DNA of 64,000 bases from the NCBI GenBank assembly GCA_017592665.1, contig JAGFNW010000002.1, positions 1 to 64,000 on the forward strand, read 5' to 3'. The notes under the pieces were generated by a model, which searched no databases, was not told the origin of the DNA, and was given only the letters and a program-made list of their open reading frames with translations. Position numbers and translations under genes: made by a program. Source of the DNA: Streptosporangiaceae bacterium NEAU-GS5. Its GTDB lineage: Bacteria > Actinomycetota > Actinomycetes > Streptosporangiales > Streptosporangiaceae. Of the stretch, positions 46,372-62,410 are shown in pieces. Every line of letters starts with the position of its first letter. Positions within the stretch are counted from its first letter, which is position 1.

Positions 46372-46461
46372 GGCGGGCTCCTCCGGTTTATTTGTCACGC
46401 CTTCCACCCAAAAGCGTATGCCGCCGATTTCCGGCGGGCCATCGGCTGGGCGGCGGATATC

Positions 46462-47064
46462 TCATCGGTCAGCCGGCGGAGGCCCGCCGAGAATGATCTG
46501 CACCCGGCTGTGCAGGCCGAGCTTTCCGAGAATGTTCTCGATATGCGATTTCACGGTCGACCGGGTGATGGAGAGGACTTCGGCGATTTCCGGGTTGGTC
46601 CGGCCGAGCCGTACGAGCTCGAAGACCTCGCGCTCGCGCCGGGTGAGCCGCTCGGCGGGGCCGGCCATGTGCGCGCGCACGTCATCGACGCTGTCGCTGG
46701 GAATCGGCAGGTAGCCGGCTCCCATCAGCCGGGCCATGGCCGGCAGCAGGCCGGCCGGCACCCGGTTCCGCGGCACCACGCAGAATCCGTGGCGGATCAG
46801 GTGCGAGGTCCAGTCGCCGGCGTTTCCGGCCACGATCAGCACCGGGACCGGGTCGCCGGCGCCGAGCCGGAAAAGCCGCTCCGCGGTTTGCGCGGTTATC
46901 GATTCCAGGCAGACGACGAACAGATCCGGAAGCGCCGTTTCCGCAAGGATGGCGATGTCCTCGATGTCCTCCTTGATTTCCAGGGTGATACCGCCGTCCT
47001 GGGCGAAGGCGTTTTTGACCCCGTTGAGAACGAGGTCGTCGTCACCGGTCGCGATAATACGCAT
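46462..47064 (-). CDS. LuxR-family response regulator-like protein
   Basis: 200 aa from ATG 47064, beginning next to the exporter stop codon (the TGA at 47066-47068 lies 1 nt upstream). The N-terminal 120 residues resemble a receiver domain (MRIIATGDDDLVLNGVKNAF, LPDLFVVCLES), but the phosphoacceptor Asp region is degenerate. The C-terminal LuxR HTH is clear (ERLTRREREVFELVRLGRTN, then ITRSTVKSHIENILGKLGL). No sensor kinase is adjacent, so control is probably by ligand or expression. As it is co-transcribed with the exporter and radical SAM genes, it is the likely local activator of the cluster. Confidence 0.85.
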   Translation of the reverse strand: MRIIATGDDDLVLNGVKNAFAQDGGITLEIKEDIEDIAILAETALPDLFVVCLESITAQTAERLFRLGAGDPVPVLIVAGNAGDWTSHLIRHGFCVVPRNRVPAGLLPAMARLMGAGYLPIPSDSVDDVRAHMAGPAERLTRREREVFELVRLGRTNPEIAEVLSITRSTVKSHIENILGKLGLHSRVQIILGGPPPADR

Positions 47065-47065
47065 T

Positions 47066-48343
47066 TCATTTCGGCTCAAGCGCGCTCATCGAGCGGTAGG
47101 CGACCGCGATGGCCCCGAGGGCCACCGCGATCGCGGCGATCCCAGCGGCCACGAAGGTGCCCCGCGGCCCGAAGACCTGTCCCGCCGTGCCGCCGAGCAG
47201 CAGCGCCGAGAGCATGCCGACCTGGGCCAGCCCGTTGAGGGACGCGGCGGCCTTGCCCCGGTCGGCCTCGGCCGTGCGCCTGATGAGCACGGCGCCGAAC
47301 GTCGCGTTCACGGCGGTGTTGGCCAGCCCGATCATCGTCGCGAAGACCAGATAGACCACGAAGTTCGGTGCGAGGCCGGCCCCCACACAGCCCAGCCCGA
47401 TCACCGCGAACCCGGCGAACGCCACCCTTACCTGGGTGGTGATGACCGCCGACCGCGCCGCGATCACCGATCCCACCGCGCCGCCGATGGCGGCGACCAC
47501 CTCGGAAAGCCCGTACAGCGCGGCCGAGGTGTGCAGGGAGTCGCGTACGAGGAAGACGTCGACGACGTTGACGCCGCCGATGGTCACGATGGTGGCGACC
47601 AGCGCCCACATCATGGGCCAGACGATCGGGTCCCGCCGGATGACGGAGAATCCGGCGAACGTGCGGATCCGGGCGGGAGCCGCACTCCGCTCCCCTTCGG
47701 AACCGCCCCGCCGGGTCCGCACCAGTGTGGCCGCGACCAGCAGCAGCGCGAACGTGACGGCGTCGATGAGCACGGCCGTGCGCATGCCGGCCAGCCCGAA
47801 CAGCGCCCCGCCGAGACCGGCGCCGAGCGGCCCGGCGAACGCGGCGAGCCCCGACTGGAAGGCGACGTAGCGGCCGATGCGGTCCTCGCCCACGACGCGG
47901 GGCATCAACGCCGTCCAGGTGGGCCCGGTGAACGCCTGCCCGACCTGGATGACCAGGAACAGCGCGAAGACCAGGCTGAGGTTGGGCGCGAACGCCAGCG
48001 CGACGCAGGCCGCCGTCTGCGCCCCCGTCGCCGCCATCAGGATGAGCTTCGAATCGTAGGTGTCGGCAACGTGCCCGGCCACGCCGATCAGCAGGACCGG
48101 CGGCACGACCTCGACGGCCAGCAGCATCACGACCGGCCAGACGCCGAGCCCGGCGGCCTGGACGTGCAGCAGCAGCACGATGGCGAGGACCGCGTCGCCG
48201 AGCATCGACACGGCGCGCGCCGGCACCACGATGCGGACGTCGTGCAGCCGCCACAGGGGCGCCGCCGTCACTGAGCCGGCCGCTGAGCCAGCCCCTAAGC
48301 CGGCCGCTGGGTCCGTCGCTGAGCCCGTCACTGGGTCGGTCAC
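47066..48343 (-). CDS. MFS transporter, probable peptide-product exporter
   Basis: 425 aa from a GTG whose last bases overlap the radical SAM stop (GTGA). About 12 helices are visible; the sequence is of the EntS/MFS_3 type (ARAVSMLGDAVLAIVLLLHV, GVAGHVADTYDSKLILMAAT, FTGPTWTALMPRVVGEDRIG), commonly used to export siderophores and other secondary metabolites. The N-terminal 25 residues are an Ala/Gly/Thr-rich tail. It lies between the radical SAM C-methyltransferase and LuxR genes, so it is assigned as exporter or self-resistance function of the cluster product. Confidence 0.88.
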   Translation of the reverse strand: MTDPVTGSATDPAAGLGAGSAAGSVTAAPLWRLHDVRIVVPARAVSMLGDAVLAIVLLLHVQAAGLGVWPVVMLLAVEVVPPVLLIGVAGHVADTYDSKLILMAATGAQTAACVALAFAPNLSLVFALFLVIQVGQAFTGPTWTALMPRVVGEDRIGRYVAFQSGLAAFAGPLGAGLGGALFGLAGMRTAVLIDAVTFALLLVAATLVRTRRGGSEGERSAAPARIRTFAGFSVIRRDPIVWPMMWALVATIVTIGGVNVVDVFLVRDSLHTSAALYGLSEVVAAIGGAVGSVIAARSAVITTQVRVAFAGFAVIGLGCVGAGLAPNFVVYLVFATMIGLANTAVNATFGAVLIRRTAEADRGKAAASLNGLAQVGMLSALLLGGTAGQVFGPRGTFVAAGIAAIAVALGAIAVAYRSMSALEPK

Positions 48344-50334
48344 CGCACGCCTCCTCCCACGGTTGCCTCGTGCCTGGCCCGGAGCGTCTCGGCCTCCCGC
48401 CGGTCGGCCGAGGCGTCGGTCCAGATCCCCTGGAAGGCCCGATGCCGTACGGCGGCCCGCTCCAGGCAGTAGTCCTCGAGCAGGCCGGGCGGCGTCGACC
48501 GGGGGATCAGCGGCGTGTAGTCGGGCGCCAGCGACAGAACCCGGTCGTCCACCTCGAGCAGCCAGCCCGCCTCGAGCAGGCCGTCCAGCGCCTTGGCGGC
48601 CACGTCCGCGTCCCCCGCGCCGAATCCGGCCAGCAGTTCGCCCGGCCGCGCGCCCCGGTCGGCGCGCCGCAGCAGGTCGGCCTCCATCGGGTCGAGCAGC
48701 CGGTGGGCGGTGGTCGCGCAGGGCCGCGTGTCGAAGACGTGGCAGCCGTCCGTCGTGTCGGCCCGCAGCAACGCGCTGGTCTCGTACGCGGCGCGCCAGT
48801 CCGCCACGATCGCCTTGAGGATGACCCCGTACTCCTCAGGATCGTTGCCGTCGTCCGCCTCGAATTCGAAGTAGTAGGCCAGGTCGTCCAGCGTCTCCAG
48901 GGGCAGGTCGTAGATCTGCTCGTAGGCGGGGGCGGGGCTGCGACCGGCCACGCCGAGGGCGGGGCCGTCGAAGTGCAGCGGGCTGAACCGGTCGAGGCGG
49001 ACCCGGCCGGCGTCCGGGGGCTGCAGATGGAACAGCTTGGGCAGCATGGCGAACATGTCGTGGAAGTCCTGCGCGCGCTCGCGCGGGAACCCGTAGAGGA
49101 TGTTCCACCGCGCCGCGATGCCCAGCTCCTCGCCCCATTTCAGCAGGCGGATGTTGTGGTAGGCCTGCACGCCCTTGCGCATGAGGTTCAGCACGGGCGT
49201 GCTCATGCTCTCGATCCCCGGCTGGACGGTACGGATCCCGGCCTGCCGCATGAGCGCCATCTGATCGCGGGTGACCTTGGATTTGATCTCGTAGAACAGA
49301 TGGGCCGAGTGCCTTCGCCGCGCGAGCTCGGGAAGGACCGTCCGGAAGTAGCGGAAGTCGAGGATGTTGTCCACGGCGTGGATGTTGGGGATGCCGTACG
49401 ACAGGGCGGCGTCGATCTCCCGCATCACGCTGTCGGGGCGCTTGCTGCGGAACTTGAGCGTCTCGCCGTTCAGCCCGCAGAACGTGCAGTGCTGCTGCGC
49501 GCCGTACCAGCAGCCGCGGCTGGTCTCGATCGGCACGAGCAGGTCGGATCGCGGCACGCCGAGGTCGGCGTGGTCGAGCTGGTCGAGCCAGTCGTCGTAC
49601 CGAGGGACCGGCAGCGCGTCGAGGTCCTGCGGCGGCACGGGCTTGGCGAACTTGGGGTGGCGCCGGGAGAGCATGCCCGGGATGACGGTGTCGCCGGTGT
49701 CGCCGGTGTCGTCGGGTCCGCCGCCCCCGGCCAGGAAGGCGGCGAGGTTGACCAGCGCGCGCTCGCCCTCGCCGGGGCAGACGTAGTCCACGTACGGAAA
49801 ATTCTGGATCACGGTCGCGCCCATCTCGGCCTCGCACGAGGCGCCGCCGAGCACGACCCGCAGCGCGGGGTCGGCCGCCTTGAGGTGGCGGGCCATCGAC
49901 AGGCTGGGCGCCAGGTTGAAGGTGGTGCTGAAGCCCGCGAGGTCGAAGCCTTCCGCCGCGATGGCCTCGCTCTCCTCCCTGACGAGCTCGCGCGCCTGCC
50001 TGAACAGGGCGGGCACGGCCTCGCAGAGCCAGGCGGGCATCGGCTTCGCCGCCGCGTAGCGGGCGATCTCCGCCTCGGCCGGCTCCCGGTCCGGGTCGGC
50101 CGGGTCCAGCCAGACCGGGGAGAACAGCAGGTCGCCGAACAGACGGTCGGCGGGCAGGTCCTCGGAGATCGTCGTGTACAGGTCGATGCCGACGCGGCGG
50201 GCGTACTTCACGTTCAGGTAGCGCACCTCGACCGTGTGGCCGTGCTGCCGGAGGACCTCCCCCAGCAGGCTGAGGCCGAGCGAAGGGCGGCGGACCGACT
50301 GGAACGGCAGCGCGCAGAGCACGATCCTGGCCAT
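48340..50334 (-). CDS. B12-binding radical SAM RiPP maturase, C-methyltransferase type
   Basis: 664 aa from ATG 50334. Residues 1-200 are a cobalamin-binding domain (RRPSLGLSLLGEVLRQHGH, FNLAPSLSMARHLK, VLGGASCEAE, YVDYVCPGEGERAL). The radical SAM core starts at residue 268 with IETSRGCWYGAQQHCTFCGL, the C-x7-C-x2-C signature (Cys275/283/286) of the RiPP maturation radical SAM C-methyltransferase family (rSAM_ocin type), rather than plain CxxxCxxC. These enzymes methylate unactivated carbons of precursor peptides using methylcobalamin. The C-terminal 200 residues form the family's extra domain. It follows the first small radical SAM gene by 16 nt and overlaps the exporter by GTGA. Confidence 0.9.
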   Translation of the reverse strand: MARIVLCALPFQSVRRPSLGLSLLGEVLRQHGHTVEVRYLNVKYARRVGIDLYTTISEDLPADRLFGDLLFSPVWLDPADPDREPAEAEIARYAAAKPMPAWLCEAVPALFRQARELVREESEAIAAEGFDLAGFSTTFNLAPSLSMARHLKAADPALRVVLGGASCEAEMGATVIQNFPYVDYVCPGEGERALVNLAAFLAGGGGPDDTGDTGDTVIPGMLSRRHPKFAKPVPPQDLDALPVPRYDDWLDQLDHADLGVPRSDLLVPIETSRGCWYGAQQHCTFCGLNGETLKFRSKRPDSVMREIDAALSYGIPNIHAVDNILDFRYFRTVLPELARRRHSAHLFYEIKSKVTRDQMALMRQAGIRTVQPGIESMSTPVLNLMRKGVQAYHNIRLLKWGEELGIAARWNILYGFPRERAQDFHDMFAMLPKLFHLQPPDAGRVRLDRFSPLHFDGPALGVAGRSPAPAYEQIYDLPLETLDDLAYYFEFEADDGNDPEEYGVILKAIVADWRAAYETSALLRADTTDGCHVFDTRPCATTAHRLLDPMEADLLRRADRGARPGELLAGFGAGDADVAAKALDGLLEAGWLLEVDDRVLSLAPDYTPLIPRSTPPGLLEDYCLERAAVRHRAFQGIWTDASADRREAETLRARHEATVGGGVR

Positions 50335-50350
50335 GGCAGGCGCCACCTGC

Positions 50351-51319
50351 TCAGACCTCACCGTAGTAGAGGGCCCGGAGGGCGTTCACGCGATCGCGCA
50401 GCTCCTCGGCGGCGGCGTGGGTCTTGTCCCTGTTGCGCTCCTGCAGCAGCAGGTGGCAGGACCCGCACGGCGACCGGCCGAGCACCTGCTCCTCGTCGCT
50501 GTCGCCGACCAGGCCGGCCGCCTCGGCCAGCGGCCGGGCCCCGAGCGTCCTGATGGTCTGAAGGACGAGGTTGCGGTCGCGGTTGTCCATGACGTCGACA
50601 AGCGGGGTGTCGCGGATGTGCCCGAACCGCAGGTCATGCTGGCCACGCACATACATGCTCTCGCCGCAGCAGCCGAAGATGCCGCCCGTGCTGCGGATCA
50701 TCACGATGTTGGCGGCCAGGCAGGGCTCGCGCTCGGGGAACATCGGGAAGACGCTGTGGTCCAGCCGGACGGCGCGGCCGACCCGCATGACGCCGGAGAA
50801 GTGGACGCGGGCGCGCTCCTCCTCCGTCGTGAGCCCCAGCTCTTCAACGATCTTGTCGAAGTCCTCGCCCTCGATGTAGGTGTAGCGGATGACGGCCTCG
50901 ATGCCGAGCTCGAGCGCCTCCTGCAGGGCGAGCCCGATGGCCCGCCGGGGCACGGCGGTGCCGTGGTAGATGTCGGCGCTCAGCCCCAGCTTCTTGGCGT
51001 CGAGGACCGAATGGAGCACTTCCTGCCGCTCGGCCGGGTCCATGGCCCACGACCCGTTGGTGGTCACCGAGTAGGAAAGGCCGAGCTCGCGCACCAGGCC
51101 GATGGCGTAGTAGAGCAGGTCCCGCACATAGAAGACCTCGCCGCCGGTGAACCCGATCTCCGCGTCCGGGTCGATCTGCTTGACCTGCTGGAGAATGTCG
51201 CGGACATATCCGCGGTCCAGCGTGGTGGTCACTTTGGGCGATGAGAATGTCGAGCAGTGCTGACAGGCGAGATTGCAGGACTCGGTCAGCTGGACCCCGA
51301 CACGGAGGCTCTCGAACAT
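50351..51319 (-). CDS. Radical SAM enzyme with C-terminal auxiliary cluster (RiPP maturase, copy 1)
   Basis: 322 aa. QLTESCNLACQHCSTF holds the [4Fe-4S]-SAM motif (Cys15/19/22); FTGGEVFYVRDLLYYAIG is the GGE motif and VTTNGSWA the following strand. C-terminal Cys200, Cys217, Cys218, Cys285 and Cys288 (EPC, FGCCGES, SPCGSC) can hold one auxiliary cluster, as in SPASM/twitch peptide maturases, but the arrangement is compact. The gene lies 122 bp downstream of the precursor on the same strand. A paralogue sharing long identical stretches is transcribed divergently (51948). Reaction type (cross-link, epimerisation, other) cannot be decided from sequence. Confidence 0.88.
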   Translation of the reverse strand: MFESLRVGVQLTESCNLACQHCSTFSSPKVTTTLDRGYVRDILQQVKQIDPDAEIGFTGGEVFYVRDLLYYAIGLVRELGLSYSVTTNGSWAMDPAERQEVLHSVLDAKKLGLSADIYHGTAVPRRAIGLALQEALELGIEAVIRYTYIEGEDFDKIVEELGLTTEEERARVHFSGVMRVGRAVRLDHSVFPMFPEREPCLAANIVMIRSTGGIFGCCGESMYVRGQHDLRFGHIRDTPLVDVMDNRDRNLVLQTIRTLGARPLAEAAGLVGDSDEEQVLGRSPCGSCHLLLQERNRDKTHAAAEELRDRVNALRALYYGEV

Positions 51320-51385
51320 GGTGCGCCGCCTTCCGCGGTGGACTGAAAGTACCCCTCCTGGCAGAGAAAACCTCGGGGAGCTTCA

Positions 51386-51412
51386 GGGCACGGACCCGGT
51401 GCGGCCGTGCCC
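51386..51412 (-). terminator. Hairpin between precursor and radical SAM genes
   Basis: GGGCACGG and CCGTGCCC form an 8-bp perfect stem (extendable with a bulge) about 30 nt after the precursor stop. There is no U tract. Partial termination or mRNA stabilisation here would give more precursor than enzyme, as is common in RiPP operons. Confidence 0.5.
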
Positions 51413-51441
51413 CTGGCACGTCTGATCGGCAGGCTTACTGA

Positions 51442-51672
51442 TCAGCTGACGTAGACCGAGCCCACCCGGATCGCCGACTGGTCCATCATGTGCGCCACCA
51501 CGAGGTCGGATTCCTCGACGTCGCTGAGGTTGAGGTCCGTCAGCATGGCCCTCTCGTGGTCGGTCAGGTCGAGGTCGCGCATGGCCTCCGCCGAGTCGGC
51601 GCGGAATCGCCCGCGGAATTCCTCGTCGGTGAGCAGCAGATTGATGACGCGCTTCACTTCCTGAGCAGACAT
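51442..51672 (-). CDS. RiPP precursor peptide, Os1348/NHLP-clan (Nif11-related) leader
   Basis: 76 aa, AGGAG 8 nt before the ATG. The leader has the helix-rich pattern of Os1348-type NHLP peptides: VKRVINLLLTDEEFRGRFRA followed by EAMRDLDLTDHERAMLTDLN. No Gly-Gly cleavage site is obvious. The tail after about residue 60, HMMDQSAIRVGSVYVS, is short and of different character (Val/Ile/Ser with Arg69 and Tyr74) and is the presumed core. It sits first on the minus-strand arm directly before a radical SAM gene, and all cluster enzymes surround it. Exact core boundaries are unknown; lack of Cys rules out lanthionine-type products. Confidence 0.8.
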   Translation of the reverse strand: MSAQEVKRVINLLLTDEEFRGRFRADSAEAMRDLDLTDHERAMLTDLNLSDVEESDLVVAHMMDQSAIRVGSVYVS

Positions 51673-51766
51673 TTCTGCTTCTCCTCTCGGGATCCTTGGC
51701 CGGCGCCCACGGAAATTGGGAGTTCCGCCGCTGCCGCGAACCGTACGCCGCCCCGATTCGGCGGAT

Positions 51767-51814
51767 CAATCGGCCACCTGACCGATCCGTCGTAACCGGT
51801 CAGGTGGCCGATTG
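51767..51814. promoter_or_regulatory. 18-bp perfect inverted repeat in the divergent promoter of the RiPP cluster
   Basis: CAATCGGCCACCTGACCG (51767-51784) and its exact complement (51797-51814) are separated by 12 bp, midway between the precursor start (51672) and the second radical SAM start (51948). It could be a two-fold operator for a dimeric or tetrameric regulator (LuxR-type or other) controlling both arms, or a hairpin in either 5' leader. Confidence 0.7.
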
Positions 51815-51871
51815 TGGGTCACCGCCGGGCGACGTACTTTCCAGAACGGCGCACACATCCCAGGCCGGAAA

Positions 51872-51899
51872 ACGCCGTACGCGAAACGCCGTGCGCGAA
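51872..51899 (+). repeat. Two adjacent 14-bp direct repeats upstream of radical SAM copy 2
   Basis: ACGCCGTACGCGAA (51872-51885) is followed immediately by ACGCCGTGCGCGAA (51886-51899), one mismatch, about 50 bp before the start codon. Tandem direct repeats at this distance resemble activator-binding sites. Confidence 0.5.
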
Positions 51900-51947
51900 A
51901 GCCGGGCGCAAAAACATCTCGTGGTTCATCGCGGAAGGCGGCATGCG

Positions 51948-52925
51948 GTGTCCTCTACGTTCGAGAATCTTCATGTCGGCATCCAGCTGACCGAATCGTG
52001 CGACCTCGCCTGCCGGCACTGCTGCACCACGTCCTCGCCGAAGGTGACGACCACCCTGGACCGCGAGTACGTCCGCGACATCCTCCGCCAGGCCGCGGAC
52101 ATCGATCCGCACGCGGAGGTCGTCTTCACCGGCGGCGAGGTCTTCTACGTGCGCGACCTGCTCTACTACGCCATCGGCGTGGTCCGCGAGCTCGGCCTCG
52201 GCTACTCGATCAACACCAACGGCTCGTGGGCGGTCGACCCGGCCGAATGCCGGGAGGTGCTCGACACGATCCTCGACGTGCGGCGGATCGCGTTCGGCAC
52301 CGACGACTACCACGATCCGGCGGTGCCGAAGCGGGCGGTCGGCCGGGCGCTGCAGGAGGCCATGCGCAGCGGCGTCCCGGCCATGATCCGTTACACCTTC
52401 GCCGCGGGCGAGGACTTCGAGCAGGTCTATCGCGAGCTCGGGCTCACCACGGAGGAGGAGCGCGCGCGGGTCGAGTTCTCCGGAATCATGCCCGTGGGCC
52501 GCGCGGTCCGGCTGGATCCCACGGTGTTCCCCGTCTTCCCGGAGCGGGAGCCGTGCTTCGCCGCCAACACGATCATGATCAGGAGCACCGGGGTCATCTA
52601 CGGCTGCTGCGGCGACAGCATGTACCTGCCCGGCAAGCACGATCTGCGCCACGGGCACGTGAAGACGACCCCGTTGAAGGAGGTCCTTTCGGCACGCGAG
52701 TCGAACGTCGTGCTCCAGACGATCAGGACGATCGGCCCGCGGCCTCTGGCGGTGGCGGCCGGCGCCATCCGGGACACTCCCGAGGACGAGATGTTCTCCC
52801 GGTCGCCGTGCGGCTCGTGCCACCTGATGCTGCAGGAGCGCAACAAGGACAAGACCCGGGCCGCCGCCGAGGAGTTCCGCGACCGGGTGACGGCCCTGCG
52901 CGCGTTCTACTACGGCGAGATCTGA
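51948..52925 (+). CDS. Radical SAM enzyme with C-terminal auxiliary cluster (RiPP maturase, copy 2)
   Basis: 325 aa from GTG 51948. It is a close paralogue of the 50351-51319 gene: QLTESCDLACRHCCTTSSPK, FTGGEVFYVRDLLYYAIG, INTNGSWA and the C-terminal Cys set (EPC, YGCCGDS, SPCGSC) align without gaps. The start is set by alignment (STFENLHVGIQ versus FESLRVGVQ) and by CGCGGAAGGCGGC, a 13-bp leader sequence shared with copy 1. An extra Cys follows the SAM motif (RHCC). Having two copies on opposite arms suggests two distinct modifications or a heterodimer. First gene of a seven-gene plus-strand arm, ending 1 nt before the cyclase/ATPase gene. Confidence 0.88.
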   Translation: MSSTFENLHVGIQLTESCDLACRHCCTTSSPKVTTTLDREYVRDILRQAADIDPHAEVVFTGGEVFYVRDLLYYAIGVVRELGLGYSINTNGSWAVDPAECREVLDTILDVRRIAFGTDDYHDPAVPKRAVGRALQEAMRSGVPAMIRYTFAAGEDFEQVYRELGLTTEEERARVEFSGIMPVGRAVRLDPTVFPVFPEREPCFAANTIMIRSTGVIYGCCGDSMYLPGKHDLRHGHVKTTPLKEVLSARESNVVLQTIRTIGPRPLAVAAGAIRDTPEDEMFSRSPCGSCHLMLQERNKDKTRAAAEEFRDRVTALRAFYYGEI

Positions 52926-52926
52926 C

Positions 52927-55900
52927 GTGGCCGCGATGCCGGACGCGCGCTGCGCGGCCTGCCTGACGCGGCTGCCGTCCCGCGCGCGGTTCTGCCCCTC
53001 CTGCGGCGAACGGGTCCAGGCCGAGGAGAGTCTCGACATACGCAAGACCGTGACCGTGGTCTTCTGCGACCTGGTCGGCTCGACCGCGCTCAGCCGCATC
53101 CTCGACCCCGAACCGCTGCGCGAGCTGATGCTGCGCTACTTCGCCCTGATGCGCGGGTGCCTGGAGCGGCACGGCGGCGTCGTGGAGAAGTACATCGGCG
53201 ACGCGGTCATGGCGGTGTTCGGCGTGCCGGTCGTCCACGAGGACGACGCGCTACGCGCCGTACGGGCCGCCGCGCAGATGCGCGACTCGCTCGCCGGATT
53301 CAACGCCGACGTCGCGCACGGCCTCGGGGTGACCCTCAACGTGCGGATCGGCGTGAACACCGGATCCGTCGTCGCGGCCGCCGACCCGGCCGCCGCTGAG
53401 GCGCTCATCTCGGGCGACGCCGTGAACCTGGCGGCCCGGCTGGAGCAGCACGCCGCGCCCGGCGAGGTCCTGCTCGGCCCGCTCACGTGCAAGGCGCTCG
53501 AGGGCGTCGTCAACTACGAGCTCGCGCCGCCGATCACGATGAAGGGCTTCGCGCAGCCGGTCGGTCCCGGCCGTCTCGTCTCGGTCGGCGACGCCGACGC
53601 GGCCGTCCCCCGGCGGTTCGACCTCGCCCTGGTGAACCGGCAGGACGAGATGGCGCTGCTGCGCCGTACGTTCGAGGCCGCCGTCCGCGAGCGCGGCTGC
53701 CGGACGGTGACGCTGCAGGGGGACGCGGGGATCGGCAAGTCCCGGCTGGCCGCCGAATTCGCGCGGTGGGCGCGGTCGCAGGGCGCCGTGGTCGCCGAGG
53801 GCCGCTGCCCGGGGTACGGCGTGGGCGGCTCGCTCACGGCCCTGGCACAGGCCATGCGCAAGTTCCTCGCCGAAGCCCGATCAGCGGCCCCACCCGAAAG
53901 CAACCCACCCGAAACCAGCCCACCCGAAACCGATGCGGCCGAGGCCCTGACGATCCTGCGTGAAGGGCTGCTGGCCGACGACGCGCCCGGGATCGCGCCG
54001 GGCGAGACCGTCTGGGCCATCGGCCGGGTGCTGCGCGAGATCGGCGCGGACCGGCCGATCGTCCTGGTCCTCGACGACATGCACTGGGCGGAGCCGAGCC
54101 TGCCGGCCGCCCTGAGCGCGGTCGCGGCGCAGCTGTCCGGTGTGGCGCTGACGCTGCTGTGCCTGACCCGCCCCGACTTCCTGAGCGAGGACGGGGCCGC
54201 GCTCGGCGATCTGCCGGACGCGCGGCTCGAGCACGTGCGCCCGCTGACCGAGGACGACTGCTACCGGCTTGTCGCCGAGCTGGACGAGGTCGTGGCGCAC
54301 GACGCCGAGATGGCCGTGCGCGCCGTCAGCCGGGCCGAGGGCAACCCGTTCTATCTGGAGCAGATCGTCGACGTCATGGGTGACGAGTCCGGGCAGTCGG
54401 TTCCGCTCGGCGTCAACGGGCTGATCGCCTACCGGCTCGACCAGCTGGCCACCGGCGAGCGCCGGATCCTCGGGTTGGCCGCCGTCGTCGGCCGTGACTT
54501 CACGCCGGCCGACCTGCTGGCCGCCGCCGAAGACGATCTCGCCGGACGGCTGGCCGGTGTCCTCGACGGTCTCGTACGCCGCCGGCTCATCGGCCGTACG
54601 ACGGCCGGGTCCTCCCCCGCCTACCGGTTCGACAGCGCGCTGATCCACGAGGTCGCCTACGACTCCATGCCCAAGAACTGGCGGGCGGCCGGGCACGAGC
54701 GCCTGGCCGACCGGCTGGCCGGCGATCCGGGCGCGGCGGAGGTCGCCGGCACGCACTGGGAGCGCGCCTGGTCGCTCCGCAAGGAGCTGGGCACCCCGGA
54801 GCAGTCCCGCAGAAGCCTGGCCGACCGGGCGGTCCATGCGCTGCTGGCCGGCGGCGTGCGGGCGCTCGCCGGAGGCGACCCGCGGCACGCCGCGGACCTG
54901 CTGTCGCGGGCCCTGCCGCTCTGCGACCCGGACGACCCGCGCCGCTGCGAGCTGCTGCTGCGGACCGGTGAGGCGCGGCTGATGGCGGGCGAGGGCGAGG
55001 CCGGGCATCGGCTGCTCACGCAGGCGCGCGATCGGGCGCGTGCCGGGCGGAACGCGATCATCGAGGCCCACGCCGAGCTGCAGCTGGCCTACCTGCGGCC
55101 GACCAGGCAGTTCAGCGCCTTGCTCGAGAAGGCGCACGAGACGCTGCCCGTCTTCGAGCAGGCCGGCGACGTCCTCGGGCTCAGCCGCGCCTGGCTGCGG
55201 ATCGGGGTGGTGGAGCAGAGCCGCGGCCGGCACGCCAGGGCCGTCAGAGCGCTCCGGCGGGCGCTCGGCTACGCCACGCGCCTCGACGCCGGGCTCGAGC
55301 AGGCCACGGTGCTCGGCGCGCTCGCGGTGTCGCTCTGGGTGGGGCCCCTGCCCGCGCACCGGGCCATCGCGCAGTGCCGTTCCCTGCTGACCGAGTACGG
55401 CCCCGGGCACCGAAGCGTACGCGCCGGGCTGCTGTGCCCGCTCGCCCTGCTGGAAGGCATGAGCGGCGCGCACGAGGAGGCGGACGCCCTGCTCGACGAG
55501 GCGGGCGGAATCATCGGCGAGCTCGGCAACGCCCGGGCGTGGGCCGTGCTCCCCATGTTCGTGGCCGCGGCCAAGGTCCTCGCCGGGGATCTCGGCGCGG
55601 CCGAGGCCATGGCGCGGCAGGCGCACGCCGCGTCGCTGAAGCTCGGCGATCCGCAGCTGACCGAGACGACCTCCCGCGACCTCGCCCGCGTCACGCTGCT
55701 GCACGGGCGGCAGGAGGAGGCCGCGGAACTGGCCATGGACGGCCTGCCCGACGACATGCCGGCCGCGGCGGCCGACCGCTACGGGCTGCGCGCCCGCATC
55801 CGGGCCCGTCAAGGGCACGCGGAGCAGGCCCTGCGGCTGTCGGGTCAGGCGCAGGCATTCGCCCGCCGCACCGACTCTCCCCTCAGCCGGGCCACCACCT

Positions 55901-56046
55901 GCCTCGACCACGCCGTCATCCTGCGCGACCTCGGCGACGTGGGCGGTTCCCGGGAGATGGCCCGCAGGGCCGCGGGCTGGTTCGGCAGGAAAGGGCACGT
56001 CGTCGGCCTCGCCTGGACCCGTGACCTGCTCGAGGGCGCCTCGTGA
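52927..56046 (+). CDS. Class III adenylate cyclase - AAA ATPase - TPR regulator
   Basis: 1039 aa. Residues 9-26 are a zinc ribbon (CAAC ... CPSC). Residues 40-215 are a class III nucleotidyl cyclase domain: FCDLVGST with metal Asp48, KYIGDAVMAVFG with Asp92 and VNLAARLEQ with the Asn167/Arg171 transition-state pair, so it may be catalytically active. A STAND/AAA domain follows (GDAGIGKS Walker A at 265-272; VLVLDDMHW Walker B), then about 450 residues of TPR-like helices. Such three-part proteins are large signal integrators in actinobacteria; they lack a clear DNA-binding domain, so output may be cAMP or protein binding. It is translationally coupled to the protease gene (GTGA), unusual for a RiPP cluster. 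Confidence 0.88.
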   Translation: MAAMPDARCAACLTRLPSRARFCPSCGERVQAEESLDIRKTVTVVFCDLVGSTALSRILDPEPLRELMLRYFALMRGCLERHGGVVEKYIGDAVMAVFGVPVVHEDDALRAVRAAAQMRDSLAGFNADVAHGLGVTLNVRIGVNTGSVVAAADPAAAEALISGDAVNLAARLEQHAAPGEVLLGPLTCKALEGVVNYELAPPITMKGFAQPVGPGRLVSVGDADAAVPRRFDLALVNRQDEMALLRRTFEAAVRERGCRTVTLQGDAGIGKSRLAAEFARWARSQGAVVAEGRCPGYGVGGSLTALAQAMRKFLAEARSAAPPESNPPETSPPETDAAEALTILREGLLADDAPGIAPGETVWAIGRVLREIGADRPIVLVLDDMHWAEPSLPAALSAVAAQLSGVALTLLCLTRPDFLSEDGAALGDLPDARLEHVRPLTEDDCYRLVAELDEVVAHDAEMAVRAVSRAEGNPFYLEQIVDVMGDESGQSVPLGVNGLIAYRLDQLATGERRILGLAAVVGRDFTPADLLAAAEDDLAGRLAGVLDGLVRRRLIGRTTAGSSPAYRFDSALIHEVAYDSMPKNWRAAGHERLADRLAGDPGAAEVAGTHWERAWSLRKELGTPEQSRRSLADRAVHALLAGGVRALAGGDPRHAADLLSRALPLCDPDDPRRCELLLRTGEARLMAGEGEAGHRLLTQARDRARAGRNAIIEAHAELQLAYLRPTRQFSALLEKAHETLPVFEQAGDVLGLSRAWLRIGVVEQSRGRHARAVRALRRALGYATRLDAGLEQATVLGALAVSLWVGPLPAHRAIAQCRSLLTEYGPGHRSVRAGLLCPLALLEGMSGAHEEADALLDEAGGIIGELGNARAWAVLPMFVAAAKVLAGDLGAAEAMARQAHAASLKLGDPQLTETTSRDLARVTLLHGRQEEAAELAMDGLPDDMPAAAADRYGLRARIRARQGHAEQALRLSGQAQAFARRTDSPLSRATTCLDHAVILRDLGDVGGSREMARRAAGWFGRKGHVVGLAWTRDLLEGAS

Positions 56047-56891
56047 CACCTTCCCTGACGCCGGCCACCCGGCTCACCGAGCCGCCGCTCACCTGGAGCA
56101 TGGTCGGCCGCGACCAGGCCGGCCTGGCCCTCGCGGCCGGCTGGCCGAGCGCCGTGACGCCGGAGCAGGCCTGGGGCGAGGCCACCGGCCGCGGGATCCG
56201 GGTCTGCGTCGTCGACAGCGGCGTGGAGGACGGTCACCCGGCGGTCGGCCCGATCCAGAGCTCGCATGCTGTGCAGCCGGGGCCGTCCGGCGAATGGACG
56301 GTGGCCGCCGCCGACCACGAGGATCTGAGCGGGCACGGCACGGCCTGCGCCGGAGTGGTGCGCGCGGTCGCGCCGGACTGCGAGATCCACAGCGTCCGGG
56401 TGCTCGGCCACGGGATGTCGGGCTCCGGCGACGCCTTCCTCGCCGGCCTTCGCTGGGTGGTGGCGCAGAACTTCGACATCGTCAACCTGAGCCTGTCGAC
56501 CACCCGGCACAAGTTCGCCGACACCCTGCGCTCGCTCGCCGACGACGCCTACTTCCACCGGACCGTGCTCGTCGCCTCGGCGCACAACCTTCCCGTGGAG
56601 AGCTTCCCGTGGCGCTTCTCGTCGGTGATCTCGGTGGGCAGCCACGACACGGGCGATCCCCACCAGTTCTTCTACAACCCGGCCCCGCCCGTCGAGTTCT
56701 TCGCCCACGGCGTCGACGTCGAGGTGCCGTGGCTCGGCGGCGGCTCGCGCCGCTGCACGGGGAACAGCTTCGCCACCCCGCGTATCGCCGGCTACTGCGC
56801 GCTGATCCTGAGCAAGAACCCCGAGCTCACTCCTTTCCAGGTCAAGAACATGCTCTATTTGACCGCCGCTAACGTGCGAGGTCCGCAATGA
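56043..56891 (+). CDS. Cytosolic S8 (subtilisin-like) serine protease, candidate leader peptidase
   Basis: 282 aa with the full triad: Asp58 in VVDSGVEDGHP, His98 in LSGHGTACAGV and Ser242 in GNSFATPRIAG, plus the oxyanion Asn182. No signal peptide and no pro-domain, so it is an intracellular subtilisin-like enzyme, as used for leader removal in several RiPP classes (for example PatA/PatG- and LanP-type proteases). The start GTG overlaps the cyclase/ATPase stop. Immediately followed by the GAF gene (ATGA overlap). Assignment to precursor cleavage is inferred from context. Confidence 0.87.
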   Translation: MTPSLTPATRLTEPPLTWSMVGRDQAGLALAAGWPSAVTPEQAWGEATGRGIRVCVVDSGVEDGHPAVGPIQSSHAVQPGPSGEWTVAAADHEDLSGHGTACAGVVRAVAPDCEIHSVRVLGHGMSGSGDAFLAGLRWVVAQNFDIVNLSLSTTRHKFADTLRSLADDAYFHRTVLVASAHNLPVESFPWRFSSVISVGSHDTGDPHQFFYNPAPPVEFFAHGVDVEVPWLGGGSRRCTGNSFATPRIAGYCALILSKNPELTPFQVKNMLYLTAANVRGPQ

Positions 56892-57559
56892 CAGACAACA
56901 CCACCTTGGCCGCGGCCATGTCGCTGGCCGTGCTGGACTCCGAACAGGACCAGCGCACCCTGCTGCACTCGGTCGTGCTGGCCGCGCGGGCGATCTTCGA
57001 CGCCGCGGCCAGCTCGATCTTCCTGCTCGACACGGTCACCGGCGACCTCGTCTTCGAGGCCGTCGCGGGCGAGGGCGAGGAGTTCCTGGTGGGCCGGCGG
57101 TTCCCGGCCACCAGAGGGATCGCGGGATGGGTGCTCAGCTCGGGCCAGCCGCTCGTGGTCGACGACCTCGACGGCGACGGGCGGTTCGCCAAGGACATCG
57201 CCGAGTCGACCCGCTACGTGCCGCGCATGCTGATGGCGACCCCCGTCACCTGCGACGAGGAGCCCATCGGCGTGCTCGAGGTGCTGGACGCCGGACAGCA
57301 GGCGCGGTCCCGGCTCGGCCAGCTGGAGCTGCTGTCGCTGTTCGCGACCCAGGCCGCCGCGGCGCTTCGGATCGTGCAGCGGAGCCGGGCGGCGCGGGCG
57401 CGGCTGCTGTCGGTCGACGCGGCCGGCGAGTCCAGCGGCCACGCCGCCGAGCTGGGCGACCTCATGGAGGTGGCCCGCCTGCTCGACGTGGCCGACGCCG
57501 AGCGGCGCCAGGCGGGGCTGCGCCTGCTCGGGTCCGTGCGCACGCTCCTGGCCGGATAG
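56888..57559 (+). CDS. GAF-domain sensor protein
   Basis: 223 aa. One GAF domain spans about residues 20-165 (AARAIFDAAASSIFLLDTVT, GIAGWVLSSGQPLVVDDLDG, PVTCDEEPIGVLEVLDA), followed by a helical tail of 55 residues. GAF domains bind small molecules or haem/flavin ligands; no output domain (HTH, kinase, GGDEF) is attached, so it probably works through a partner. Its coupling to the protease and the cyclase/AAA protein suggests these three form a sensing/proteolysis module. A 57-nt gap separates it from the aminopeptidase gene. Confidence 0.85.
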   Translation: MTDNTTLAAAMSLAVLDSEQDQRTLLHSVVLAARAIFDAAASSIFLLDTVTGDLVFEAVAGEGEEFLVGRRFPATRGIAGWVLSSGQPLVVDDLDGDGRFAKDIAESTRYVPRMLMATPVTCDEEPIGVLEVLDAGQQARSRLGQLELLSLFATQAAAALRIVQRSRAARARLLSVDAAGESSGHAAELGDLMEVARLLDVADAERRQAGLRLLGSVRTLLAG

Positions 57560-57616
57560 CCGAAGTAGCCGAGCAGCCGAGTAGGCCCGAGTGGCCGGAC
57601 ACCCAGAGGAGGTCAC

Positions 57617-60136
57617 GTGTCAGCAGGCCTGACCCAGGACGAGGCGCGCGAGCGCGCCTCACTCGTCACGGTCGCGTCCTACGACGTCGACCTCGATCTG
57701 ACCCGTGGGGACACCGCGTTCGGATCGACCAGCGTGATCCGATTCGGCTGCGCGGCTCCCGGGGCCGGCACCTTCGTCGACCTGACGGCCCCGGTCGTCC
57801 GGCGGGTCACGCTCAACGGCGCCGAGGTGGACCTCGCCGCGTTCGACGGCAACCGCGTCGCGCTGACCGGCCTCGCCGCCGACAACGTGCTGGTGGTCGA
57901 GGCCGAGTGCGCCTACTCGCGTACGGGCGACGGGCTGCACCGCTTCACCGACCCGGCCGACGGCCTCACCTACACCTACACCGACCTCGAGACCTTCGAC
58001 GCGCACCGGGTCTACGCCTGCTTCGACCAGCCCGATCTGAAGGCGGCCTTCACCTTCGCCGTGTCCGCGCCCGCCGATTGGGCAGTGGTCTCCAACATGC
58101 CTGTGGAGTCCTCCACCGGGCTCCGTCGCCGGTTCTCCACCTCGCCGCCCCTTCCCACCTATGTCACGGCGATCATCGCGGGCCCGTACCACGAGGTCAG
58201 GGGCGAGCACGACGCGATCCCGCTGGGCGTGTACTGCCGCCTGTCGCTGGCCGCGCACCTCGACGCGGACGAGATCCTCACGGTCACCAGGCAGGGCTTC
58301 GACTTCTTCCACGCGGCGTTCGGGGTGAGGTATCCCTTCCCGAAGTACGACCAGCTGTTCGTGCCGGAGTTCAAGGGCGGCGCGATGGAGAACGCGGGCG
58401 CGGTCACCTTCAGCGAGGAATGCCTGTTCCGCTCCCGGGTGACCGACTTCGCCCGGCAGGCCAGGGCCGAGACCATCCTGCACGAGCTCGCGCACATGTG
58501 GTTCGGCGACCTCGTCACCATGCGCTGGTGGGACGACCTGTGGCTGAACGAGTCGTTCGCCTCCTGGGCCGCGACGCTGGCGCTGTCCGAGGCCACCCGG
58601 TGGAATTCGGGGTGGACGGCGTTCGCCCAGCTGAGCAAGGCGTGGGCCTATCGTCAGGATCAGATGGCGACCACGCATCCCATCGCCGCCGACATCCAGG
58701 ACATCGCCGCGGTCGAAGTGAACTTCGACGGGATCACCTACGCCAAGGGCGCCTCCGTGCTGAAGCAGCTTGTGTCGTGGAACGGCCGCGAGAACTTCCT
58801 CTCCGGCGTGCGGGACTACTTCGCCGCGCACGCCTGGGGCAACGCGACCCTGGCCGACCTGCTCGCCGCGCTCGAGCGGAGGTCGGGACGCGACCTGACG
58901 GCGTGGTCGGACCAGTGGCTGCGGACGGCGGGGGTCAACACGCTCCGCCCGTCGATCGAGGTGGACCCGTCCGGGCGCATCACGTCGTTCGACGTGCTCC
59001 AGGAGGCGCCCGCGGCGCATCCCGCGCTCCGCGACCACCGCATCGCCATCGGGTTCTACGACCAGGAGCCGGAGGGCTTCATCCGGACGCGGAGCTTCGA
59101 GGTCGACGTGTCCGGCGCGCGCACGGAGCTGCCGGAGCTGGCCGGCCAGGTGCGCCCGGATCTCGTGCTGCTGAACGACGACGACCTCACGTACGCCAAG
59201 ATCCGGCTCGACGGGCACTCGCTGCGCACGCTCGCGGCGAGCGTCGGCGACCTCGGCGACTCCCTGGCGGCCGCCCTGTGCTGGGCCACGGCCTGGGACA
59301 TGTGCCGCGACGGCGAGCTGGCCGCGCGCGACTACGTCCGCCTGGTCACCTCGGGCGTCGGGTCGCTGTCCGCTGTGAGCATGGTCGAGGCCCTGCTCGC
59401 GCAGGCCGCGGTCGCGATACGGCGGTACGCCGACCCGCCCTGGCGGGAGAGCGGCCTCGATCTTCTGGCGGGCGCCACGCGGCGGCTGGCCGGGGAGGCC
59501 ACGGCCGGCTCGGACACCCAGCTCGCCTTCGTGCGCGCGTGCGCACGCGCGGCCACCTCCGACGAGGATCTGAAGTTCCTGGCGGGCCTGCTCGACGGGT
59601 CCGTACGGCTCGACGGGCTCACCGTGGACACCGAGCTCCGCTGGTCACTGCTCGGCCGGCTCGTCGGCCGCGGCGTCCTCGGCGCCGAGGAGATCGACGC
59701 CGAGCTGAAACGGGACCCCACCGACGCGGGCCGGCGCCACGCCCTCACCTGCAGGGCGTCGATGCCGACCGGCGCGGCGAAGGAGGCCGCCTGGTGGGAG
59801 CTCACTCTGGGAGAGGTGCCCCTGGCCGAGTTCCGCGCCGTGCTCGCCGGATTCGCCGACCCGGATCAGCAGGACCTCACCGTGGCGTATCGGGACCGCT
59901 ACTTCGCGGCCATCGGCGACGTCTGGCGCGACCTGCCCACCGTGATGGCGCAGGACTTCGTCTCCGGCCTGTACGTGAGCTGCCCCTTCACCGAGGACAC
60001 GATCCAGGCGACGGACGCCTACCTCGCGGCGGACCATCCACCGGACGCGCTGCGGCGCCTTCTCACGGAGGGCCGCGACGACGTCGTGCGCGCCCTCCGC
60101 AGTCAAGCACGCGACCGCCAGGAGGCGACGCCATGA
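57617..60136 (+). CDS. M1-family aminopeptidase N-type metallopeptidase
   Basis: 839 aa from GTG 57617 with GGAGG upstream; standard M1 length. GAMENAG (about 254-260) is the exopeptidase motif and HELAHMWFGDLV (about 289 on) the HExxH zinc site, with the third ligand Glu in WLNESFA 18-19 residues later. No signal peptide, so cytosolic. Actinomycetes normally carry a housekeeping PepN; a second copy embedded between a GAF gene and a peptide-modifying arginase (ATGA overlap) suggests trimming of residual leader residues or degradation of the leader. It may prefer different N-termini from PepN. Confidence 0.9.
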   Translation: MSAGLTQDEARERASLVTVASYDVDLDLTRGDTAFGSTSVIRFGCAAPGAGTFVDLTAPVVRRVTLNGAEVDLAAFDGNRVALTGLAADNVLVVEAECAYSRTGDGLHRFTDPADGLTYTYTDLETFDAHRVYACFDQPDLKAAFTFAVSAPADWAVVSNMPVESSTGLRRRFSTSPPLPTYVTAIIAGPYHEVRGEHDAIPLGVYCRLSLAAHLDADEILTVTRQGFDFFHAAFGVRYPFPKYDQLFVPEFKGGAMENAGAVTFSEECLFRSRVTDFARQARAETILHELAHMWFGDLVTMRWWDDLWLNESFASWAATLALSEATRWNSGWTAFAQLSKAWAYRQDQMATTHPIAADIQDIAAVEVNFDGITYAKGASVLKQLVSWNGRENFLSGVRDYFAAHAWGNATLADLLAALERRSGRDLTAWSDQWLRTAGVNTLRPSIEVDPSGRITSFDVLQEAPAAHPALRDHRIAIGFYDQEPEGFIRTRSFEVDVSGARTELPELAGQVRPDLVLLNDDDLTYAKIRLDGHSLRTLAASVGDLGDSLAAALCWATAWDMCRDGELAARDYVRLVTSGVGSLSAVSMVEALLAQAAVAIRRYADPPWRESGLDLLAGATRRLAGEATAGSDTQLAFVRACARAATSDEDLKFLAGLLDGSVRLDGLTVDTELRWSLLGRLVGRGVLGAEEIDAELKRDPTDAGRRHALTCRASMPTGAAKEAAWWELTLGEVPLAEFRAVLAGFADPDQQDLTVAYRDRYFAAIGDVWRDLPTVMAQDFVSGLYVSCPFTEDTIQATDAYLAADHPPDALRRLLTEGRDDVVRALRSQARDRQEATP

Positions 60137-61074
60137 CCAACAGCCCCTACTACCTGGGGAAGCACTGCCAGGCCTGCGACCTTTCGGCTCAGCTGCGGCC
60201 CGGGCAGTGGTGCGTCTTCGGCGTCCCGATCTCGTTCGACTTCGAGGACGCGACCCGTGGCGGCATGGGCCCGTTGCTCATCCGGAAGTCCCTGCCGTTC
60301 CTGTGGGACGGGTTCCCGCGGCTGCTGTGGGATTGGACCTCCGACAGCCTCGTGGAGACGATGACCAATCTCCCGCTCGACCTCGGCGACATTCCGTACG
60401 ACCGGCGGACCGACCGCGCGTACGAGGTCGAGGACAGGATCGTGCGCTGGGCCGCCGACATCGCCGGGAACGGCGGGCGGCCGCTGGTGCTGGGCGGCGA
60501 GCACTGGATCACCTTCCCGGTGCTGCAGGGCCTCACCAAGCACGTGGGGCCGGTCTCGGTCGTGCACTTCGACGCGCACACCGACACGCACCGCTGGATC
60601 GCCCCGCGCGGCGCCGAGCCCCGGCTGCGCAACAACAACGTGATGACGTTCGTCGAATCGCTCGACGGCGTCGAGCGGCTGCTGCAGATCGGGGTCAGGG
60701 AGTACGACGTCGCGATCGACCTCGAGACCGCGGGGGCGTCGGCGAAGTGCGCGGTGATCCCCCCGGACGCGATCAACGACGCGATTTTCGACGGCCTGCC
60801 CGAAGGGTCGAAGGTGTACGTGACCATCGACGCCGATGTCCTCGACCCCGCGTTCGCGCCCGAGGTCGGCTGGCCCGTGCCGGGCGGCATCACCGTGCGG
60901 CAGCTGCTCGCCATGATCAGGCAGATCCGCCGCCGGTACGACGTCGTCGGCCTCGATCTGGTCGAGGTGATGGGGATCGGCGACGGCGTGAACCGGGCCG
61001 CGCTCGCCATGGCGCGCTGCGCGCTCGCCTTCCTGGCCGACGACGTCACCTCAGGAGGACCCGCGAATGCCTGA
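60133..61074 (+). CDS. Arginase/agmatinase-family enzyme, candidate peptide arginase
   Basis: 313 aa, ATGA-coupled to the aminopeptidase. Ureohydrolase metal motifs are complete: GGEH (His124), FDAHTDTH (Asp147, His149, Asp151) and TIDADVLDP (Asp233, Asp235), the binuclear Mn site. Family members hydrolyse arginine, agmatine or formimidoglutamate. In RiPP clusters a divergent subgroup (OspR type) converts peptide Arg to ornithine. The presence of a single Arg in the predicted core and the unusual N-terminus (YYLGKHCQACDLSAQL) support that role here. The next gene overlaps by 8 nt. A free-arginine role cannot be excluded. Confidence 0.87.
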   Translation: MTNSPYYLGKHCQACDLSAQLRPGQWCVFGVPISFDFEDATRGGMGPLLIRKSLPFLWDGFPRLLWDWTSDSLVETMTNLPLDLGDIPYDRRTDRAYEVEDRIVRWAADIAGNGGRPLVLGGEHWITFPVLQGLTKHVGPVSVVHFDAHTDTHRWIAPRGAEPRLRNNNVMTFVESLDGVERLLQIGVREYDVAIDLETAGASAKCAVIPPDAINDAIFDGLPEGSKVYVTIDADVLDPAFAPEVGWPVPGGITVRQLLAMIRQIRRRYDVVGLDLVEVMGIGDGVNRAALAMARCALAFLADDVTSGGPANA

Positions 61075-62410
61075 CTACGATCTCGTCGTCGTGGGCGGCG
61101 GGCCGGCCGGCTCCACCCTCGCCGCGCTGGTGGCCATGCGCGGGCATCGCGTGCTCCTGCTGGAGAAGGAGCACTTCCCGCGTTACCAGATCGGCGAGTC
61201 GCTGCTGCCCGCCACGGTGCACGGCATCTGCCGGCTGCTCGGCGTCACCGACGCGCTGCAGGCCCGTGACTTCACCGTCAAGCGCGGCGGCACGTTCCGG
61301 TGGGGCAGCAACCCCGTGCCGTGGTCGTTCCAGTTCGGCGACCTGCCGGCCTTCGCGGGCGACAAGGCGTACGCCTATCAGGTGGAGCGGATGCGCTTCG
61401 ACGAGGTGCTGCTGGACAACGCCCGCCGGGTCGGCGTCGAGGTGCGTGAGGGCTGTTCGGCGGCCGACGTCGTCGAGGGCGACGGGCGGGTCGAAGGTCT
61501 CACCTACGTCGACGAGGAGCACGGGCCGCGGACCGTGACCGCCCGCTATGTGGCGGACGCGTCGGGGCACCAGAGCCGCATCTACCGGCACATGACAGGC
61601 GTGCGGCACTACTCCGACTTCTTCCGCAACGTCGCCCTGTTCGCCTACTTCGAGAACGGCAAGCGGCTGCCGGAGCCCAACTCGGGCAACGTCCTTTCGG
61701 CCGCGTTCGACGACGGCTGGTTCTGGTACATCCCGCTCACCAAGACGCTCACGAGCGTCGGCGCGGTCGTGCGGCGCGAGCTCGCGCACGTCGTGCAGGG
61801 CGACCCCGAGCAGGCCCTCGGCAAGCTCATCGAGGCGTGCCCGCTGATCAGCGAATATCTCGAGGGCGCGACCCGGGTCACCGAGGGGCCCTATGGGAAG
61901 ATCCGCATCCGGCGCGACTACTCGCACTGCCACGAGCACTTCTACCGGCCGGGCATGCTCCTCGTCGGCGACACCGCGTGCTTCGTCGACCCCGTGCTGT
62001 CCTCCGGCGTCCACCTCGCCACGTACGGCGCGCTGCTGGCCGCGCGGGCCGTCAACAGCTGCCTGGCCGGCGCCCTGGACGAGGAGCGGGCGTTCGGGGA
62101 GTTCGCGCGCGGATACCGGGCCGAATACACCTACTTCTACAAGTTCCTGCGCTCCTTCTACGCGCAGAACGTCAACGAGCGGTCGTACTTCTGGGAGGCC
62201 AAGCGGCTGACCGGGTCGGCGCTGTCCGACATCGTGGCGTTCGTCGAGCTGGTCGGGGGCGCGGCCTCGGGCGAGCCCGCGCTGATCGCCGAGGCCGGCC
62301 TGGTCATGTCGTACGCGGCCCGCGCCTCCCAGTCGCAGGCCGCGGCCACAAGCGACCTCGTCGCCTCCCCCGACGGGCTGGCGTGGGATCTCACCCCGAC
62401 AAGATCTTGA
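61067..62410 (+). CDS. Flavin-dependent halogenase-like monooxygenase
   Basis: 447 aa, AGGAGG upstream. VVVGGGPAGSTLAALVA is the FAD-binding GxGxxG. FPRYQIGESLLPATVHG and DGWFWYIPL contain the family landmarks; WFWYIP (218-223) matches the WxWxIP motif of FADH2-dependent halogenases. DFTVKRGGTFRWG places Lys72 where the chloramine-forming Lys lies. CFVDPVLSSGVHLA follows the phenol/pyrrole halogenase pattern (PltA/CmlS-like). The natural target in this cluster would be Tyr74 of the precursor. No flavin reductase gene is in the window. Its 3' end overlaps the convergent NB-ARC gene by 20 bp. Hydroxylase or reductase activity remains possible. Confidence 0.85.
   Translation: MPDYDLVVVGGGPAGSTLAALVAMRGHRVLLLEKEHFPRYQIGESLLPATVHGICRLLGVTDALQARDFTVKRGGTFRWGSNPVPWSFQFGDLPAFAGDKAYAYQVERMRFDEVLLDNARRVGVEVREGCSAADVVEGDGRVEGLTYVDEEHGPRTVTARYVADASGHQSRIYRHMTGVRHYSDFFRNVALFAYFENGKRLPEPNSGNVLSAAFDDGWFWYIPLTKTLTSVGAVVRRELAHVVQGDPEQALGKLIEACPLISEYLEGATRVTEGPYGKIRIRRDYSHCHEHFYRPGMLLVGDTACFVDPVLSSGVHLATYGALLAARAVNSCLAGALDEERAFGEFARGYRAEYTYFYKFLRSFYAQNVNERSYFWEAKRLTGSALSDIVAFVELVGGAASGEPALIAEAGLVMSYAARASQSQAAATSDLVASPDGLAWDLTPTRS

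Follow-up and report, generated by a model that had tools for sequence, protein, structure and literature searches.

The 64,000-nucleotide window of contig JAGFNW010000002.1 from Streptosporangiaceae bacterium NEAU-GS5 contains a RiPP cluster (45385 to 62410), the predicted product of which is a tailored C-terminal core with a halogenated Tyr74 and an ornithine in place of Arg69; as a whole, we give this reading a probability of about 0.5. Its parts differ in strength, with the tyrosine being better supported as a target than the arginine.

The minus-strand genes of the cluster encode a haem-oxygenase-like iron protein (PF14518; 45385..46407; 46% in the sister cluster described below, G060), a LuxR-type regulator (46462..47079; 50% in G060), an MFS exporter (PF07690; 47066..48343; 66% in G060), a cobalamin-binding radical SAM enzyme, a YydG-like radical SAM protein and the precursor. 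The haem-oxygenase-like protein has an AQPAAAQ-rich insertion that is missing from its G060 orthologue. The plus-strand genes encode, in order, a second YydG-like protein, a nucleotide cyclase/AAA/TPR protein that is a probable regulator (PF00211 and PF13191; 52927..56046; 64% in G060), a subtilisin-like protease (QhpE-like, a candidate leader peptidase; PF00082, 2.5e-25; 102 bits against NF049966, under the cut-off of 165; 56043..56891; 78% in G060), a GAF-domain protein (PF01590, 3.1e-16; 56888..57559; 76% in G060), an M1 aminopeptidase N (a candidate trimming peptidase; TIGR02412, 1002 bits; 57617..60136; 68% in G060), a PF00491 ureohydrolase and a flavin halogenase. The ureohydrolase gene overlaps the M1 and halogenase genes by a few bases each, as expected for a single operon. 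The precursor gene is thus accompanied by maturation, protease and export genes, and this set is kept in G060. The cluster contains exactly one ureohydrolase and one flavin halogenase, as the initial annotation had counted. Among the cluster genes, none was recognised as a flavin reductase; the sequence beyond the window holds regulators followed by transport and other genes, with no more tailoring genes recognised by eye. The cyclase/AAA/TPR protein distantly resembles the TOMM system kinase/cyclase fusion (TIGR03903; 154 bits, cut-off 706). The protease and the flavoenzyme (56043-56891 and 61067-62410) resemble QhpE and QhpG of quinohemoprotein amine dehydrogenase maturation, both with scores below the cut-offs.

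The precursor (76 aa; 51442..51672, minus strand) consists of an NHLP-clan-like leader (approximately residues 1-60) and the putative core HMMDQSAIRVGSVYVS (residues 61-76; 51445..51492, minus strand). The start codon is ATG with a good ribosome-binding site upstream (GAGAGGAG-AAGCAGAA-ATG); the translation of the plus strand at 51442-51672 was unrelated to the precursor. The initial annotation had placed the precursor here, without stating the strand, and its tail of 16 residues was confirmed to carry a lone Arg (Arg69, codon 51466-51468, minus strand) and a lone Tyr (Tyr74, codon 51451-51453, minus strand). Tyr74 is the sole Tyr of the full precursor, which has seven Arg residues in total; inspection of the whole sequence found neither Trp nor Cys. 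Against the model for the Os1348-family NHLP-clan leader (NF038399), the precursor scored 39.8 bits (3.5e-10), marginally under the cut-off of 40, which the G060 orthologue exceeded (40.6 bits); TIGR04509 was also matched. The AF2 model of the precursor (mean pLDDT 70, moderate to low confidence) showed helices within residues 3-62 and a non-helical tail of low confidence (pLDDT about 50), and was used solely to place the leader/core boundary. One Arg and one Tyr with at least five Val, Ile, Leu or Ala residues were found in 6.5% of the 16-mers from the proteins of the cluster. The pattern taken alone is therefore little evidence, and the pairing of these residues with the two enzymes needs comparative support.

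Homologues of the radical SAM proteins and the precursor were searched in 347 genomes of the order, a class sample of 395, 99 relatives of G060 and, twice, genome_contigs. In all these searches, high-similarity homologues were found only in the window's genome (G000) and in G060, the Streptosporangiaceae MAG JOPF074 (contig JASHQL010000156.1, 67 kb; assembly 88% complete). The weaker matches in genome_contigs had 23-35% identity, many of them from Paenibacillus and Streptococcus, and tblastn of the precursor against plasmids gave no match. Since a single sister cluster was found, the co-occurrence is based on n = 2, and neither the Tyr-halogenase nor the Arg-arginase correlation is a statistical test. 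The G060 cluster is syntenic with that of the window apart from the differences described below. The two precursors share 75% identity overall, and the G060 tail (HMMDQSAIRVGAVYVS) is identical at 15 of 16 residues, with both Arg and Tyr retained; it is this conservation in the sole homologue found that gives the tail pattern its weight. Of the tail codons, 11 were identical, 4 synonymous and 1 non-synonymous, versus 19 non-synonymous codons among the 60 of the leader (Fisher p = 0.055), so that the higher conservation of the tail is suggestive only.

The FADH2-dependent halogenase (61067..62410, plus strand; 71% to the G060 orthologue at L006:2055-3389) belongs to the CndH-like phenol/tyrosine group. 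Its best PDB match was CndH (3E1T; 505 bits, 1.3e-150), followed by 8zop (248 bits), CmlS (223 bits), ChlB4 (141 bits) and PltA (133 bits); chains named as tryptophan halogenases scored below 30 bits. The motifs of flavin-dependent halogenases (WxWxIP, FxxPxxSxG and the Lys-containing KxGGTF) are intact in both RiPP-linked copies as WFWYIP, FVDPVLSSG and KRGGTF or KHGGTF. Elsewhere in the order, 53 further genomes carry homologues with 53-66% identity. NRPS/PKS signatures, in the form of AMP-binding, carrier-protein or KS motifs, were seen in 13 of the 20 homologue neighbourhoods read. The other RiPP genes were in none of them, apart from one weak radical SAM match at a contig edge; in the L072 neighbourhood, apparent hydroxyphenylglycine genes and an NRPS module were seen by eye beside the halogenase. 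The two RiPP-linked halogenases paired in the tree (support, 100/100), and in both a stretch of about 40 residues near the C-terminus is deleted relative to all 20 other homologues (444-447 residues versus 474-491). For CndH, the indicated substrate is a tyrosine analogue tethered to an enzyme (PMC8407142), and the carrier protein is thought to bind a groove of CndH near the active-site entry, where RadH has its C-terminal domain (PMC10377541). As a hypothesis, the C-terminal deletion may be tied to a peptide instead of a carrier-protein-bound substrate. The enzyme shares sequence, motifs and predicted phenol ortho-halogenation with the CndH/NRPS-linked phenol halogenases, but its substrate is expected on a leader peptide. 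The known halogenated RiPPs (SrpI, NAI-107 MibH, MppI and chlorolassin ChlH) likewise involve flavin-dependent halogenation of a ribosomal peptide, which in the SrpI proteusins is guided by an NHLP-type leader; however, the RiPP halogenases in a 2025 review are tryptophan halogenases with Trp as the target (PMC12615548), whereas the precursor in the window has no Trp and the enzyme is of the phenol group. Since the precursor has no Tyr besides Tyr74, and since both this residue and the phenol-type enzyme are kept in the sister cluster (n = 2), the earlier link between Tyr and the halogenase is supported, and Tyr74 is probably the residue that this enzyme halogenates.

Three radical SAM genes lie beside the precursor gene. 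The cobalamin-binding C-methyltransferase (48340..50361, minus strand; 69% in G060) matched TIGR03975 with 536 bits, well above the cut-off of 282. Radical SAM protein 1 (50351..51319, minus strand; 74% to the G060 orthologue), a predicted peptide epimerase of the YydG/EpeE type, contains the CxxxCxxC, GCC and CGSC motifs and matched TIGR04078 (8.6e-20) and the structures 8ai1/8ai6 (about 1e-14). Radical SAM protein 2 (51948..52925, plus strand; TIGR04078, 1.2e-20), for which a GTG start at 51948 was assigned from the sequence, is a paralogue of protein 1 (69%), and G060 has no second copy. The scores of 71 and 74 bits did not reach the YydG/EpeE family cut-off of 300. When the Cys that donates the H atom was sought in the C-terminal half, the GCC segment aligned with a Cys-Cys segment of YydG. 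Compared with the epipeptides (YydF/EpeX with YydG/EpeE), the cluster is similar in that YydG structures are the only PDB relatives of these radical SAM proteins and in its short Val/Ile-containing core, but differs in having the NHLP-clan leader, the C-methyltransferase, the halogenase and the ureohydrolase, and in scores far below the YydG cut-off. The epimerised residues of epipeptides are Val and Ile (PMC8326336), and the tail offers Ile68, Val70, Val73 and Val75. The methylation of aliphatic residues that had been proposed fits the single TIGR03975 enzyme, and radical C-methylation of the core is likely; the proposal overlooked the two YydG/EpeE-like proteins, because of which D-residues are predicted too. 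Judged from these homologies, epimerisation of Val/Ile is a good prospect, and D-Val or D-Ile is about as likely as C-methylation.

For both enzyme types, a different chemistry should be considered. The flavoprotein could be a phenol hydroxylase, or it could use a small molecule. If it hydroxylated Tyr74 or oxidised another residue, as QhpG does on peptidyl Trp, no halogenation would take place; such a role would accord with the 156 bits obtained with the QhpG model (NF049967) and with the QhpE-like protease in the same operon, but CmlS and CndH scored above QhpG (264 and 505 bits), the WFWYIP, FxxPxxSxG and KRGGTF segments are intact in both RiPP-linked copies, and the precursor lacks Trp. 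Hydroxylation is thus rather improbable, and a QhpG-type monooxygenase identity was weighed and ranked below the halogenase. As for the two YydG-like proteins, they may catalyse cross-linking or other bond formation rather than epimerisation, giving a cyclised peptide; their scores under the family cut-off would allow this, and 69% identity between the paralogues permits two different sites or reactions. Such a product is unlikely, however, given that YydG provides the only solved structures matched, that the GCC segment aligns with a Cys-Cys segment of it, and that Val and Ile, which epipeptides carry in epimerised form (PMC8326336), abound in the tail.

The assignment of the ureohydrolase (a candidate peptide arginase; 60133..61074, plus strand; PF00491, 9.8e-44) is less certain. 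It is one of four PF00491 proteins of the window's genome, and the other three are encoded outside the cluster. Its Mn-ligand motifs are intact (GGEH, DAHTD and DADVLDP for GGxH, DAHxD and DxDxxDP), and the agmatinase-type HGHGxPM segment is replaced by RNNNVM; with its nearest relative in the order (L042 of G027, 52% identity), it forms a subgroup having RN(N/S)NVM at this place. An OspR-type peptide arginase was rejected, as only PF00491 and not PF12640 was matched; the landornamide/OspR-type arginases are similar in the proposed conversion of Arg to Orn and in an NHLP-related precursor, but belong to a different protein family. A closer parallel is KgrD, a PF00491 enzyme that makes peptidyl Orn in enteropeptins (PMC12703449) and is likewise encoded, with Arg to Orn predicted, in a radical SAM RiPP cluster. 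KgrD requires that the thiomorpholine be formed first (PMC12703449; PMC10028609), whereas the precursor in the window, which is of another family, has no Cys from which a thiomorpholine at Arg could derive, and therefore this requirement cannot apply in that form. Conversion of Arg69 to Orn by the cluster ureohydrolase is plausible, with a chance somewhat short of even.

The initial annotation proposed to check whether the Arg is conserved only together with the arginase, and the alignment did not bear this out. The sister cluster keeps Arg69, but its M1 and halogenase genes overlap directly without a ureohydrolase gene between them; the cluster arginase was not found in the whole 88%-complete assembly, and the 20 kb flanking the cluster on its halogenase side gave no arginase match. 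The only PF00491 gene of G060 lies on a separate contig and is similar to an agmatinase-type gene that G000 has elsewhere. The converse case, with arginase and halogenase kept and Arg or Tyr lost, was not observed, and the arginase-free Arg69 of the sister is no refutation of Orn in the product of the window. Alternatively, the ureohydrolase may have been acquired for a free guanidino compound, with Arg69 staying Arg as is expected in G060. That G060 retains Arg69 without the enzyme is consistent with this, as is the genomic context of the G027 homologue, around which no RiPP cluster was seen over about 20 kb in both directions; the loss of HGHG is common to this non-RiPP homologue, and the substrate may therefore be something other than the peptide. 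The absence of a PF12640 match points in the same direction. On the other hand, the gene sits tightly in the operon with overlaps at both ends, the cluster holds no other guanidino metabolism genes, and peptide arginases of PF00491 are known, such as KgrD (PMC12703449). A free guanidino substrate is thus a serious contender, though somewhat less likely than not.

In the preferred reading, in which Arg69 does become Orn, the reactions, their sites and their order are predicted as follows. The 76-aa precursor has a helical NHLP-clan leader and a C-terminal core of about 16 residues. With the leader still attached, the cobalamin radical SAM enzyme would C-methylate the core, and one or both of the YydG/EpeE-like enzymes would epimerise Val/Ile in it. 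The CndH-like halogenase, the shortened C-terminus of which may reflect the peptide substrate, would chlorinate or brominate Tyr74 ortho to its hydroxyl. Conversion of Arg69, probably by the PF00491 ureohydrolase, would be an optional extra step of this strain's operon only. The leader would then be cut off by the subtilisin-like protease, the end possibly trimmed by the M1 aminopeptidase, and the product exported by the MFS protein. More tentatively, we suggest that an NRPS-type flavin halogenase, reshaped by a C-terminal deletion, acts on the single Tyr of a RiPP that combines a near-invariant core with a tailoring set exchanged between strains. If true, this would show how an NRPS-associated halogenase type can serve a ribosomal pathway, and a tyrosine halogenase able to use a ribosomal peptide as substrate would offer a new tool. 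The cluster pair is also a natural experiment: the cores are almost identical and only one cluster has the arginase, which predicts products differing at a named residue.

The tailoring set of the window comprises two epimerase-like proteins and the arginase, and that of G060 one epimerase-like protein, an ApyD-related cobalamin radical SAM protein (NF050148; 252 bits, cut-off 750) and one more TIGR03975 C-methyltransferase, the last two being absent from the window; the two extra radical SAM genes are at L006:15658-17430 and L006:74-2008. The product of ApyD is beta-methyltyrosine at a penultimate Tyr (PMC10635010), and for this reason Tyr74 of G060 may perhaps be modified twice, by the halogenase and by the ApyD-like enzyme.
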